From a virus: a stretch of 27,518 nt of DNA. Under the pieces are notes generated by a model. The model worked only from the letters and a program-made list of their open reading frames with translations, was not told where the DNA came from and did not search any database. Both the position numbers and the translations under genes were made by a program. Where the stretch lies: positions 1-27,518 of IMG/VR virus record IMGVR_UViG_3300042446_000607; one strand, given 5' to 3'. Shown piece by piece: positions 24,116 through 27,518 of this stretch; position 1 is the first letter of the stretch, and each line of letters opens with the position of its first letter.

Positions 24116-24676
24116 ATGAAAACAGTTGGCGATAAATTAACCCCATTTGCAGTAACAGGTGTCAAGCCAGGACAACCAGAAGATGCCTTCTATACAATTA
24201 CAGAAAAATCATTTGAAGGCAAGTGGAAAGTAATTGTTTACTATCCAAAGGACTTTACATTTGTATGCCCTACAGAAATTGTAGCATATGACAAATTAGC
24301 AGGTGACTTTGCCGAGCGTGATGCAGTTTTACTCACAGGCTCGACAGACAACGAGTTCTGTAAGGTAGCATGGCAAAAGTCACACGATGACTTGCGCAAG
24401 ATTATACATCACCAGTTTGCTGATACTGCTCGTCACCAACCTGGCGAAGAACGTGGCGGTGTAAGTCTTATTGAGCAGTTGGGCGTGTTCTATGCTCCAG
24501 CAGGTGCCGCACTTCGTGCCACATTCATCGTTGACCCAGACAACGTTATCCAGCACGTTACTGTGAACAACTTGAATGTTGGTCGTAGCCCAGAAGAAAC
24601 TCTGCGTGTGTTGGATGCGTTACAGACTGGCGAACTATGTGCCTGTAACCGTACCGTTGGCGGCGAGACACTATAA
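24116..24676 (+). CDS. ahpC: Peroxiredoxin AhpC (alkyl hydroperoxide reductase)
   Basis: A complete 186-residue 2-Cys peroxiredoxin. The peroxidatic Cys is C51 in YPKDFTFVCPTEIVAY, with the conserved Thr two residues later. The resolving Cys lies in the C-terminal ELCACNRTVGGETL (C175, with an extra Cys at C177), as in the AhpC type that uses AhpD. ATFIVDPDNVIQHVTVNNLN and GRSPEETLRVLDALQ are also typical. It reduces H2O2, organic hydroperoxides and peroxynitrite. The pattern, from memory, matches betaproteobacterial AhpC. It is followed by ahpD, sharing the A of the stop/start (TAATG), so they are one operon. A phage-borne copy is unusual. Confidence 0.95.
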   Translation: MKTVGDKLTPFAVTGVKPGQPEDAFYTITEKSFEGKWKVIVYYPKDFTFVCPTEIVAYDKLAGDFAERDAVLLTGSTDNEFCKVAWQKSHDDLRKIIHHQFADTARHQPGEERGGVSLIEQLGVFYAPAGAALRATFIVDPDNVIQHVTVNNLNVGRSPEETLRVLDALQTGELCACNRTVGGETL

Positions 24677-25182
24677 TGGCATTTATTGACGCAATTAAAA
24701 CTGCGTTGCCAGACTACGCCAAGGACACCAAGTTAAACCTTGATGCTGTTCTTGTGCGTAGCACATTGGATGCTGATGTGGCCATGGGTTGTGCTGTGGC
24801 CGCACTCGCCGCAACTGGTAACGGAAAGGTATTAGCTGTTATGTTAGCGGATCAACCAGTACATGCTGAATCAGCAATGACCGCCGCTTCAATTATGGCA
24901 CAGAACAATGTATGGTATCCCTACGTTGAGATGGCTGACGATCCTGCTCTTAAAGGATTGCCAGCACAGTTACGCATGAATGCCATTGCCAGTCACGGTG
25001 GAACTACCAAGTCAAACTTTGAGGCATTTAGTTTAGCCGCAAGTATTGTGGGCAAGTGCCACTTCTGTGTGAAAGCGCACTACGAAACACTCAAGCAAGA
25101 AGGATACACAGTAGAGCAATTACGTGATATTGGCCGTATTGCCAGTGTTATGAATTCGGTGGCCAAAGTTCTGAACAGCTAA
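24676..25182 (+). CDS. ahpD: Alkylhydroperoxidase AhpD
   Basis: A 168-residue AhpD, all helical, with the redox pair C128-x2-C131 in VGKCHFCVKAHYETL, H135 four residues later, and E116 upstream: the Glu...Cys-x-x-Cys...His relay of AhpD. NNVWYPYVEMA and LPAQLRMNAIASHGG are also family blocks. AhpD reduces AhpC (in mycobacteria it does so with dihydrolipoamide through lipoyl proteins) and has weak peroxidase activity of its own. It starts at the stop of ahpC and shares the betaproteobacterial look. Together the two form a self-contained peroxide-detoxifying pair. Confidence 0.93.
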   Translation: MAFIDAIKTALPDYAKDTKLNLDAVLVRSTLDADVAMGCAVAALAATGNGKVLAVMLADQPVHAESAMTAASIMAQNNVWYPYVEMADDPALKGLPAQLRMNAIASHGGTTKSNFEAFSLAASIVGKCHFCVKAHYETLKQEGYTVEQLRDIGRIASVMNSVAKVLNS

Positions 25183-26270
25183 TGCACAAAAAACATCAAG
25201 TCATCAGATGTGAAGCATATATCTTTCAAGGAGATACTTTTTCCGTTGAACAGGCTGAAAATTTTCTTAAAGAGTACGACACAGACTGTGATACTATTTT
25301 AGCTAGTGTGTGGGAAGTACCTTATTATAAAATGTCTACTAACTGGAGACAAGGGTATAAAAACCTAGTACAAACAGCAAAAAGAAAATTAAAAGGAAGA
25401 ATTTTTGTTATACTTGATTCCTGGTATCAACCATATTACCAAGACTTGTTAGATCCAGCTGTTGATGATGTTTTGTTAATTGATTATTTCTTGGTTAGAA
25501 TCTATAACGAAGTTGTAGTTAAAAAACTATGCGATTTTAAAAAAATACCCGATGTAAAAAATCCATTTTTATTCTTAACTGGCAAACCATCTAAACTCAA
25601 CAGAACTCGATTGTTATATAAGTTACAACAGAAGAATTTGTTAGAAAACAGCATATGGTCGTTTTATCCAATTAAAGATAAAATTAATCAAGAACATTCA
25701 ACTGTGCCTGAAATAACAGTTGACGAATACATTGATTTTACAAACAAATATCAACGTCAACCAGATAGTGTTAAATTTAAACCGTCTGGCCACTCTTATT
25801 TTTTTCTTCCGGTACCTTACGACGTTAAACTTTATGATAGTACAGGTTTTTCAATTGTACCCGAAACTATATTTAATAATACAAATTCGTTTGATACTGT
25901 TTTTTTCACAGAAAAAACCTGGATTCCAATATTAAATAATCATGCTTTTATAATTGCTGGAATTCCTGGTGTACTCAAACAACTATCAACTATGGGGTTC
26001 AAAACCTTTGAAGAATATTTGCCAGTTAAATATGACAACATACTTAACCACGAACAACGATTAAATGCAATTGTTGAAAACGTGGAATTTTTAGTTAATA
26101 ACATCGATGCCCTAGAGAATGATTTAATTAACGATATCAAACACAATCATCAAAATTTAATAAAATTAGCTTGCAATAATGTTGATAATATTCTCAATCT
26201 TGCCAAACAGCATCAATGGCAAATTAAACAGTTTGACGACCTAGTTAACACCGCTGATAAAATTCTATAA
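25182..26270 (+). CDS. Phage protein with glycosyltransferase-like C-terminal motif (362 aa)
   Basis: A 362-residue protein starting at the ahpD stop (TAATG). The N-terminal half alternates strands and helices (ILASVWEVPYYKM, IFVILDSWYQPYY) and the C-terminal half includes SIVPETIFNN, FFTEKTWIPILNNHAFIIAG and IPGVLKQLSTMGFKTFEEYL. This 'F-x-T/S-E-K-x-x-x-P-I...PF-I-I-x-G...L-x-x-x-G-F-K-T-F' pattern recalls a family common in T4-like phages, probably GT-B-type glycosyltransferases (memory). Donor and acceptor unknown. It is more A/T-rich than ahpCD, like an older phage gene, so ahpCD appears to have been inserted before it. Confidence 0.5.
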   Translation: MHKKHQVIRCEAYIFQGDTFSVEQAENFLKEYDTDCDTILASVWEVPYYKMSTNWRQGYKNLVQTAKRKLKGRIFVILDSWYQPYYQDLLDPAVDDVLLIDYFLVRIYNEVVVKKLCDFKKIPDVKNPFLFLTGKPSKLNRTRLLYKLQQKNLLENSIWSFYPIKDKINQEHSTVPEITVDEYIDFTNKYQRQPDSVKFKPSGHSYFFLPVPYDVKLYDSTGFSIVPETIFNNTNSFDTVFFTEKTWIPILNNHAFIIAGIPGVLKQLSTMGFKTFEEYLPVKYDNILNHEQRLNAIVENVEFLVNNIDALENDLINDIKHNHQNLIKLACNNVDNILNLAKQHQWQIKQFDDLVNTADKIL

Positions 26271-26295
26271 CAATTACAGATTATGGATATATAAT
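26267..26295 (+). promoter_or_regulatory. Promoter of a short transcript
   Basis: ATAACA (26267-26272, weak -35), 17 bases, TATAAT (26290-26295). It is followed after six bases by ATG 26302 and then, about 130 bases later, by an intrinsic terminator. Confidence 0.5.
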
Positions 26296-26301
26296 AGTAC
26301 T

Positions 26302-26406
26302 ATGAACTATCAATCATTGTCCATGTACACCAAGTGTGACGCACGAGATTTCGTGAGTTACAACTATGAGCACATGTGCAATGCGGGTCTTGGGAAATCT
26401 AGATAA
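26302..26406 (+). CDS. Possible 34-residue peptide gene, perhaps leaderless
   Basis: A 35-codon frame from ATG to TAA (start MNYQSLSMYTKCDARDF) lying exactly between a promoter and a terminator. The predicted mRNA 5' end coincides with ATG, so there would be no ribosome site. Codon choice looks like that of neighbouring genes. The same span has short hairpins (CACGA-GATT-TCGTG), so it may instead be a small RNA. Confidence 0.35.
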   Translation: MNYQSLSMYTKCDARDFVSYNYEHMCNAGLGKSR

Positions 26407-26424
26407 CTAGAAAGTACTGCTAAT

Positions 26425-26456
26425 AAAGACCCGCCAACTAGGCGGGTTTTCTTTTT
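26425..26456 (+). terminator. Rho-independent terminator
   Basis: ACCCGCC and GGCGGGT (26429-26435 / 26441-26447) form a 7-bp GC-rich stem with a 5-base loop, followed by TTTCTTTTT. It ends the short transcript and also stops read-through from ahpCD. Confidence 0.9.
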
Positions 26457-26554: not shown

Positions 26555-26583
26555 TTGACAAAAATTGCAAAGTATCATATAAT
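26555..26583 (+). promoter_or_regulatory. Perfect consensus promoter for the tRNA/ncRNA unit
   Basis: TTGACA (26555-26560), exactly 17 bases, TATAAT (26578-26583). Start expected near 26590. Together with the identical arrangement at 20022 this is the strongest promoter of the window, as suits a stable-RNA operon. Confidence 0.88.
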
Positions 26584-26589
26584 TGATGC

Positions 26590-26880
26590 ATACGTTGAGA
26601 AATCAACAATGTTCTTTAACAATGTTAGAGTTTTTGTATAGTAGCCCGCAAGGGTTGCTATATTAAAATGTATTAAAGGTTACCTACACCGTTAGGGATC
26701 TACAGCGAGGACAGTGGGGCCGCCCACGCTCAAACTAGGTCTATGAAACCGGGCAGAAATGTCCAGAAAAGCGGCGGAGCATGTAGGCAGTAATGACCGT
26801 GCAGGCCTATACAAGACGGTTGTATAGGTAGACATAGATGCACAATGGTTCCTTTAGTATTTTTTAATATAGTAAATTTT
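26590..26880 (+). ncRNA. Structured non-coding RNA, 5' domain
   Basis: There is no credible protein gene here, but many nested stems. GTTGA-GAAA-TCAAC (26594-26607) and TATAGTAGCCC-GCAA-GGGTTGCTATA (26637-26662, two G-U pairs) both have GNRA loops. A long helix, 26665-26679 with 26851-26865, encloses CCTACA/TGTAGG (26683-88/26782-87), GGACA/TGTCC (26709-13/26760-64), GTGGG-GCCG-CCCAC (26714-26727) and the perfect 9-bp CCTATACAA/TTGTATAGG (26806-26828). TCTATG (26740-45) with CATAGA (26833-38) would be a pseudoknot. Transcribed from the consensus promoter at 26555. It recalls the large ornate phage RNAs (GOLLD, ROOL) known to lie near tRNAs, but I cannot confirm membership. Confidence 0.65.
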
Positions 26881-26970
26881 GGAGCGGTGGCCGAACGGTA
26901 AGGCAGCGGATTGCTAATCCGTACAACGTGTTAAAGCGTTGACTGGGTTCGACTCCCAGTCGCTCCGCCA
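26881..26970 (+). tRNA. tRNA-Ser(GCT)
   Basis: Class II tRNA. Acceptor GGAGCGG/TCGCTCC region with a G discriminator and encoded CCA, anticodon stem GCGGA/TCCGT around TTGCTAA (anticodon GCT), long variable arm ACAACGTGTTAAAGCGTTG, T-arm CTGGG-TTCGACT-CCCAG. It reads AGC/AGT. It sits inside the ncRNA transcription unit. Confidence 0.93.
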
Positions 26971-26976
26971 AGTTTT

Positions 26977-27041
26977 GAGAGTCACATCGCCTGGATACTT
27001 CCTTTGGTAACAAAGCACTAGGTCCTGCAACCGTGGCTCTC
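26977..27041 (+). ncRNA. 65-nt structured RNA between tRNA-Ser and tRNA-Glu
   Basis: A self-closed element: GAGAGTCAC (26977-26985) pairs with GTGGCTCTC (27033-27041), 9 bp with one U-G. Inside, CCTGG (26990-26994) pairs with CTAGG (27018-27022), and CTTTG-GTAA-CAAAG (27002-27015) is a perfect hairpin with a GNRA loop. There is no T-loop or anticodon arm, so it is not a tRNA. It may be a module of the larger RNA. Confidence 0.6.
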
Positions 27042-27049
27042 CCTTATTT

Positions 27050-27124
27050 GCTCGATTCGTCTATCGGTTAGGACATGCGGTTTTCATCCGCATAAGAGCG
27101 GTTCGACTCCGCTATCGAGTACCA
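27050..27124 (+). tRNA. tRNA-Glu(TTC)
   Basis: Acceptor GCTCGAT/ATCGAGT (first pair G-U), anticodon stem TGCGG/CCGCA around TTTTCAT (anticodon TTC), T-arm AGCGG-TTCGACT-CCGCT, encoded CCA. D-arm and the TCGTCTA region match Glu tRNAs. It reads GAA/GAG. Confidence 0.92.
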
Positions 27125-27129
27125 GACAT

Positions 27130-27215
27130 GGAGATGTGGCCGAGTGGCTGAAGGCGGCAGACTGTAAATCTGTTCTGTAAAAAGCGCGGTGGTTCGAATC
27201 CATCCATCTCCACCA
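27130..27215 (+). tRNA. tRNA-Tyr(GTA)
   Basis: Class II tRNA. Acceptor GGAGATG/CATCTCC, anticodon stem GCAGA/TCTGT around CTGTAAA (anticodon GTA), variable arm TCTGTAAAAAGCGCGG, T-arm GGTGG-TTCGAAT-CCATC, encoded CCA. G34 of a GUN anticodon is the site of queuosine, of interest because FolE, QueD- and QueE-like genes are nearby. Confidence 0.93.
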
Positions 27216-27414
27216 GAACGTTCCGGATTAGTCTCTGGATACTGTGACCCACAGGATGAGAAGTAGTGTGACAACTACGGGTGGTAGTCTTTAAACCCAA
27301 AGGCCGCTGGCAATGCGATAACGGTTCCTGTCGGGAAGCGGGTGGAAGGAGTGTGTGATGGGTATGATAGCGTCATATCTTGATACTCTATAATTACCGC
27401 CGGGGGATGCAGAG
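27216..27414 (+). ncRNA. Structured non-coding RNA, 3' domain
   Basis: No protein gene is visible. Hairpins include CTGTG-ACC-CACAG (27242-27254) inside a TCTC/GAGA closing stem, GTAGT/ACTAC (27263-27278), TTCC/GGAA (27325-27337) and GGTATGA-TAGCG-TCATATC (27361-27379). CTGGATACT at 27235 repeats a segment at 26991. It is G/C-richer than the flanking coding DNA, as expected for structured RNA. It appears to be the continuation of the same transcript that contains the three tRNAs. Confidence 0.55.
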
Positions 27415-27512
27415 CATTTTTAAGTACATACCCTACGCCTACTTGGAATAGGAGATAGTGTCCATAGCACTGAAGAAAGGTTTAAATGTACTTAAAAATG
27501 TTTTGTTTTTAT
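27415..27512 (+). terminator. Long closing stem with T-tract, end of the RNA unit
   Basis: CATTTTTAAGTACAT (27415-27429) and ATGTACTTAAAAATG (27486-27500) form a perfect 15-bp stem, followed at once by TTTTGTTTTT. The 56 bases between hold small stems such as AGTG/CACT. It may serve both as the closing helix of the RNA and as its terminator. Confidence 0.65.
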
Positions 27513-27518
27513 AGTCAA

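Follow-up and report, generated by a model that had tools for sequence, protein, structure and literature searches.

Phage tRNA islands are customarily read as codon-supply cassettes. The 3' end of one viral sequence raises the question of what else such an island may encode, and of how a phage would transcribe kilobases of RNA that is never translated. The sequence is a 27,518-base virus record from IMG/VR, referred to in its entirety as the window. A sequence-only reading of its last part proposed a single RNA of ~920 nt with three tRNAs embedded in it, running from a perfect promoter to a terminator and containing no protein gene.

The window and its tRNA array

Proteins encoded in the window include an epimerase, radical-SAM proteins, an exonuclease, a GroEL-type chaperonin, and a peroxiredoxin-like protein; genes of the AhpC/TSA and CMD families (24116-25182) lie shortly 5' of the array. 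The protein directly 5' of the array is found with 100% identity in contigs of up to 342 kb and with 94% identity in contigs of 345 kb and 262 kb. These matches place the window in a huge phage, whose tRNA array it cuts near the start. In a near-identical 342-kb relative (G001) the array continues, with 18 more tRNAs on an 11-kb piece and 22 on one of 16 kb; 7 of 10 array pieces carry 19 to 31 tRNAs.

The features of the array in the window are collected in Table 1. All three proposed tRNA genes were recovered at their predicted positions, and the region is devoid of protein genes, as claimed: there is no ORF of at least 80 aa downstream of position 26270. The predicted rich folding was also confirmed, since the segments 26590-26880 and 27216-27512 fold below their shuffled counterparts (z of -4.1 and -3.6, respectively), as does the whole unit (z of -7.3, from 20 shuffles only).

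Table 1. Features of the tRNA array within the window
Feature	Position	Strand	Remarks
Sigma-70 promoter of the array, TTGACA-N17-TATAAT	26555-26583	+	12/12 matches; kept in L006
boxB-like hairpin GTTGA-GAAA-TCAAC, directly 3' of the promoter	26594-26607	+	Sequence and fold; identical in L006
boxA GTTCTTTAACA	26611-26621	+	Exact match to GYTCTTTAANA, downstream of the promoter
11-bp leader hairpin with GCAA cap	26637-26662	+	3' arm shared with the closing helix of A
Structured RNA element A	26653-26873	+	Covariance model R2, 190.7 bits; covariation, 21 sequences
tRNA-Ser(GCU)	26881-26970	+	
Structured RNA element B	26972-27042	+	Position taken from an identical copy in L003 (6791-6861); covariation, 13 sequences
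tRNA-Glu(UUC)	27050-27124	+	
tRNA-Tyr(GUA)	27130-27215	+	
Structured RNA element C, the most widespread	27217-27415	+	Covariance model R1, 205.5 bits; covariation, 29 sequences
Stem of at least 15 bp, 3' of C; terminator stem of the sequence-only reading	27415-27500 (27415-27429 with 27486-27500)	+	
Structured RNA element D, start only (5' strand of closing helix)	27505-27518	+	Cut by the window end

The stem thought to terminate the unit is present, but the unit does not simply end at 27512, as the array runs on in the 342-kb relative. Other relatives, such as L006, have different sequence at the position of the stem. In a fold of eight sequences, the T-tract that follows it (27501-27512) forms the 5' strand of the long closing helix of element D in this phage; the pair count given for D below was restricted to the inner portion of this helix, and some D rows lack the outer T's. 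Because the T-tract belongs to this helix, the stem and T-tract are probably not a terminator; partial termination may occur at the stem. It went unlisted in our terminator scan because the scan accepted loops of 3 to 8 nt only.

Two further arrays had unusual features. A 524,565-base contig (G003) carries an array with A, C, and E twice, in opposite orientations, at ~119 to 127 kb and ~416 to 425 kb, which reflects either a genuine inverted duplication or an artifact of assembly. The array of a 225-kb phage contig (L283, 4545-4623) includes a tRNA that ARAGORN calls tRNA-Pyl (anticodon CUA).

Five families of structured RNA

The idea of one large RNA was not confirmed. Comparison of L003, L006, L023, and further contigs divided the non-tRNA sequence of the array into at least three separate elements, A, B, and C, each with its own closing helix, followed by D, of which the window holds only the start, and by E, which lies beyond the window and in L003 begins ~0.8 kb after the start of D. 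The elements are ~70 to 220 nt in size. Covariation among homologues had been named in advance as the way to check the proposed structures, and compensatory changes well above both shuffled and slid controls were found in all five elements. For C (29 sequences), 27 of 46 predicted pairs changed on both sides with pairing kept, and 96.4% of cells were paired; the covariation score was 0.488, compared with 0.172 for shuffled and at most 0.095 for slid controls, and none of 500 shuffles attained any of the five measures. The corresponding scores were 0.611 against 0.229 for A (21 sequences; double changes in 25 of 33 pairs), 0.613 against 0.219 for E (16 of 20 pairs), 0.495 against 0.172 for D (23 of 33 pairs), and 0.331 against 0.193 for B (13 sequences; 11 of 21 pairs), for which one measure, further pair types, pointed the opposite way (16, compared with 20.2 in shuffles). 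Alignment A1 took in 29 of 36 representatives, the seven with differently cut ends being left out, alignment A2 took in 21 of 23, and A3 19 of 20; A4 includes four partial rows, with L133 doubtful. Inspection by eye also identified a pseudoknot in C, in which GGU-ACC becomes GGC-GCC in L125.

No conserved reading frame was found. In A, C, D, and E, the majority of rows have a stop in all six frames, and element lengths vary with no constraint to multiples of three, which together speak against a hidden protein. B, at 71 columns, is too short to judge, with stops in 3 to 13 of its 13 rows depending on the frame. Searches of Rfam, at the gathering score and at E values of up to 10 (A to C) or up to 5 (D and E), returned only tRNAs and sub-threshold matches, so that the suspicion of a phage-borne class of structured noncoding RNA outside Rfam proved correct. 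We conclude that A to E are five new structured RNA families in the tRNA arrays of huge phages. One sub-threshold match, to permuted tmRNA (RF04321), overlaps C at 20.4 bits against a cutoff of 47; it does not mark a tmRNA, because relatives carry real permuted tmRNA genes elsewhere. These genes (126 to 140 bits to RF04321, in L011, L012, L281, and L283) are in huge-phage contigs that have a related GroEL or else A, C, or E.

An iterative profile search covering 227 loci gave 136 for C, 63 for E, 62 for A, 51 for B, and 43 for D, counts that are redundant by contig. The core pattern of C occurs in at least 120 viral stretches and that of E in 9; the A pattern occurs in 34, of which 30 were also matched by the A profile, and the remaining four (L101, L110, L117, and L120) are probably chance matches. 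Among 84,980 prokaryote genomes, one per species, the C pattern was found in four places, where the match was limited to the pattern itself; these we attribute to chance. In a set of 47 long contigs, 25 of them picked for the A or C pattern and 21 by GroEL alone, C was strong in 33, present at 12 bits in one more, and absent from 13, while A was found in 18 and E in 29. Of the 21 GroEL-picked contigs, some of which are near duplicates, 8 had strong C, 5 had A, and 13 had E. E values of the three covariance models are rough.

Every member found is a metagenome contig. A blastn search of 50,697 phage records gave no match for A and only short matches for C (E of 0.3 to 1), and models R1 and R3 matched none of six large-phage records (five isolates and one uncultured), in searches run with stricter filters and no positive control; no cultured member is therefore known. 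In the open-access literature, among the matches listed, there was no description of these RNAs or of boxA in phage tRNA arrays.

The leader of the array

The promoter proposed for the array is indeed perfect, matching the consensus at all 12 positions, and it is the only perfect one listed between 25000 and 27518. What follows it resembles the start of a bacterial rRNA operon. The boxA of the leader matches exactly the gammaproteobacterial consensus, which PMC5725501 gives as GYTCTTTAANA; E. coli rrnB has the boxA motifs GCTCTTTAACA and GCTCTTTAAAA in its two leaders. In rrn leaders the order is boxB, boxA, boxC, with boxA necessary and sufficient for complex formation, according to PMC10250234, and from this order the hairpin between promoter and boxA in the phage leader may have a boxB-like role. 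The likeness to a bacterial rRNA operon leader (boxB-boxA, rrnTAC) thus extends over a promoter, a hairpin, boxA, and then a long helix; unlike its bacterial counterpart, the phage leader precedes tRNAs and new noncoding RNAs and no rRNA.

The motif is not confined to this phage. Across 279 loci, in which related phages are not independent, the published consensus occurs at 63 distinct sense-strand sites in tRNA arrays (0.107 per kb), compared with 3 antisense sites in the same regions and 21 sites in 2.08 Mb outside arrays (0.005 per kb), an enrichment of ~20-fold on the sense strand. A TTGAC-type promoter lies immediately 5' of 51 of the 61 boxA sites that precede a tRNA or element, against a background of 3.4%; this count used our own boxA pattern, which differs slightly from the published consensus. 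Upstream of A, a boxA-like motif is present in 28 of 39 distinct sequences, at a distance of 37 to 48 nt in 26 and of 87 and 98 nt in the other two. When A leaders were clustered (n = 27), 12 clusters had the published boxA (0.02 expected) and 16 a looser motif, so that boxA is missing from 11 to 15 of them, depending on the motif. A GOLLD-bearing contig that lacks C and A (G007) also has boxA and a promoter, ~570 nt upstream of its GOLLD match. The motif and its position suggest that the array is transcribed with antitermination of the rrn type.

We also considered, and set aside, a switch in which the leader hairpin and the closing helix of A exchange strands. A 7-of-9 pairing rule held in 22 of 26 cases, and shuffled leaders often did equally well; the exchange is only a lead and is not significant alone.

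Two further features of the upstream regions were noted by eye. A recurring unit, consisting of a promoter-like site, an ORF of ~35 to 50 codons, and a GGACCC..GGGTTTT-type hairpin with a T-tract, stands ahead of the array and ahead of E (window, 26267-26455, with a 34-aa ORF at 26302-26406; L003, 7690-7935; L023, 8320-8530) and resembles a leader-peptide attenuator. A small ORF with an LTPEQLKKLIxDKFxRA-like motif, seen 5' of E in L003 (8120-8134) and in its relatives L006, L023, and L096, ends right before E or stands before A.

Placement, release, and possible roles of the elements

The tRNA cluster of phage T4 also holds non-tRNA stable RNAs between phage tRNAs, the stable RNAs C and D; these are single small RNAs of one phage group. 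In the huge-phage arrays, the elements often abut the tRNAs. Counting an end as flush when it lies within 10 nt of a tRNA, and taking elements between two tRNAs with random placement in the same gaps as the expectation, the 5' end was flush for 45 of 70 copies of C (2.2 expected; mostly at 0 to 1 nt) and 19 of 23 copies of B (1.5 expected), for 5 of 24 copies of A and 5 of 23 of D, and for none of 13 copies of E (0 of 16 overall). The 3' end was flush for 16 of 24 copies of A (0.7 expected), 17 of 23 of B (1.5 expected), 23 of 70 of C (2.1 expected), 19 of 23 of D (1.0 expected), and 8 of 13 of E (0.3 expected). This geometry suggests that the elements are released by tRNA maturation.

Release in this way would not account for every copy of C. 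Where C has an upstream tRNA, that tRNA is more than 10 nt away in 31 of 79 cases, and eight distinct copies have no tRNA within 1.5 kb. Six of these eight start where an upstream ORF (ORFs called mechanically) stops: five begin 1 to 4 nt past the stop codon, and the sixth shares 2 nt with it. The eight copies away from tRNAs show that tRNA processing is not the sole route and define a second context for C. A self-cleaving origin of its 5' end was considered, the idea coming from the flush start of C behind unrelated genes. A stand-alone C-like RNA in L026 (13304-13580) has its own terminator-like hairpin and sits immediately 5' of genes for peroxiredoxin-like and AhpD-like proteins.

Taken together, we think it probable that the window ends in the head of a huge-phage operon of tRNAs and noncoding RNAs, built like an rRNA operon, from which the elements are cut out along with the tRNAs as stable, trans-acting RNAs. 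Host RNA polymerase would start at the perfect sigma-70 promoter, and the boxB-like hairpin and boxA in the nascent leader would recruit NusB/S10 and partners, so that the polymerase escapes termination by Rho over many kilobases of RNA that is not translated. A, B, C, D, and later E would fold between the tRNAs, each by means of its own closing helix, as the covariation indicates; enzymes that mature tRNAs would then cut at the tRNA ends and thereby free the elements. In infected cells, the freed RNAs might serve as stable phage RNAs that act on the translation machinery of the host or in its vicinity, conceivably with a function akin to that of GOLLD, which is encoded in the same kind of locus. 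That they act on translation is a tentative proposal, drawn from their context of many array tRNAs and, in relatives, permuted tmRNAs. It seems rather improbable that the operon, with its own boxA-type antitermination, yields a set of split structured RNAs from which, along with the tRNAs of the phage and in certain phages also tmRNA and GOLLD, a translation complex specific to the phage is assembled or remodeled on the ribosomes of the host.

The elements could instead be fragments of one multipart RNA, such as a ribozyme or a GOLLD-like cage, that is split by tRNA genes and active only once reassembled. The order A-B-C-D is maintained in most multielement loci, and of the 18 contigs with A, 17 also have C and 17 have E (two lack C or E). 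In L089 (minus strand, 7162-6797), the terminal helix of E contains A, giving a single contiguous RNA, the two being separate in L003. GOLLD itself, as described in PMC12286853, forms a 14-mer cage and sometimes carries a tRNA in a linker; an overlap of a GOLLD match with a tRNA was seen in the contigs that we searched. Against this, every element is self-closing, E is placed either 5' or 3' of the others, D is occasionally 5' of C, and C also occurs where A, B, D, and neighboring tRNAs are all missing. Base pairing between elements was compared for six pairs, and in five the best helix did not rise above both controls. Only A and E gave a slight excess (0.29, against 0.25 in the parallel control and at most 0.17 in six row shuffles), in a helix that involves a variable stretch, and we did not count it as support. 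With no clear coevolution of pairing between elements, a joint machine is unsupported, and we regard a single split RNA as unlikely.

Equally, the frequent flush placement between tRNAs and the long closing helices are what would be expected of processing scaffolds or spacers, whose only task is to shield tRNA precursors or keep them apart until cleavage. Many invariant nucleotides, however, are distant from the ends, foremost in B (the central stretch of C looks overconserved because the search pattern selected it), and C also stands alone behind protein genes. The adjoining tRNAs, moreover, differ between phages, the tRNA after A being Ser in L003 and Asp in L023; with such variable neighbors the elements act as cassettes. 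A purely structural role is thus also unlikely.

The sequence-only reading had raised the possibility of a divergent GOLLD or ROOL. The setting is the same: phages and prophages carry GOLLD, a large structured RNA, often within tRNA islands, and ROOL is a phage RNA near tRNA islands, as PMC12286853 describes them. The locus examined here is likewise in a phage, beside tRNAs, and rich in covarying RNA, and one of the two related contigs with GOLLD carries C in the same array. GOLLD, however, is one RNA, often of more than 800 nt (PMC12286853), whereas here there are several separate elements, with no match to it in sequence or structure. The GOLLD model (RF02032) gave no match at the gathering score in G001, with G007 and G043 as positive controls; in an initial search of seven phages it matched only one, and it matched 2 of the 47 contigs. 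The ROOL model (RF03087) matched none of the 47 contigs in a search run with no positive control, and the cmscan lists for A to E contain neither family. The locus is therefore not GOLLD, and nothing found here makes it ROOL; membership in either is very unlikely.

The rRNA-like leader and the tRNA spacers could also bring to mind relics of captured ribosomal RNA, an extremely unlikely origin, since comparison with E. coli rrnB gave only noise-level scores (best of 2.5 bits for R1 and of 2.4 bits for the five profile HMMs, the sole method used for B, D, and E) and four R2 matches of 15 to 18.5 bits, to two hairpins on both strands and confined to the closing helix, so that homology to 16S, 23S, or 5S rRNA was rejected by sequence and by structure.

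For the biology of huge phages, these results mean that a tRNA array is also a dense store of strongly conserved RNAs, comprising five families that Rfam lacks, the most widespread of which occurs in at least 120 stretches of viral sequence. The boxA motif offers a concrete explanation of how such long untranslated RNAs are transcribed by a phage, one that may extend to GOLLD. If the elements bind ribosomes, phages would reshape translation by RNA too, beyond the proteins and tRNAs that they supply.
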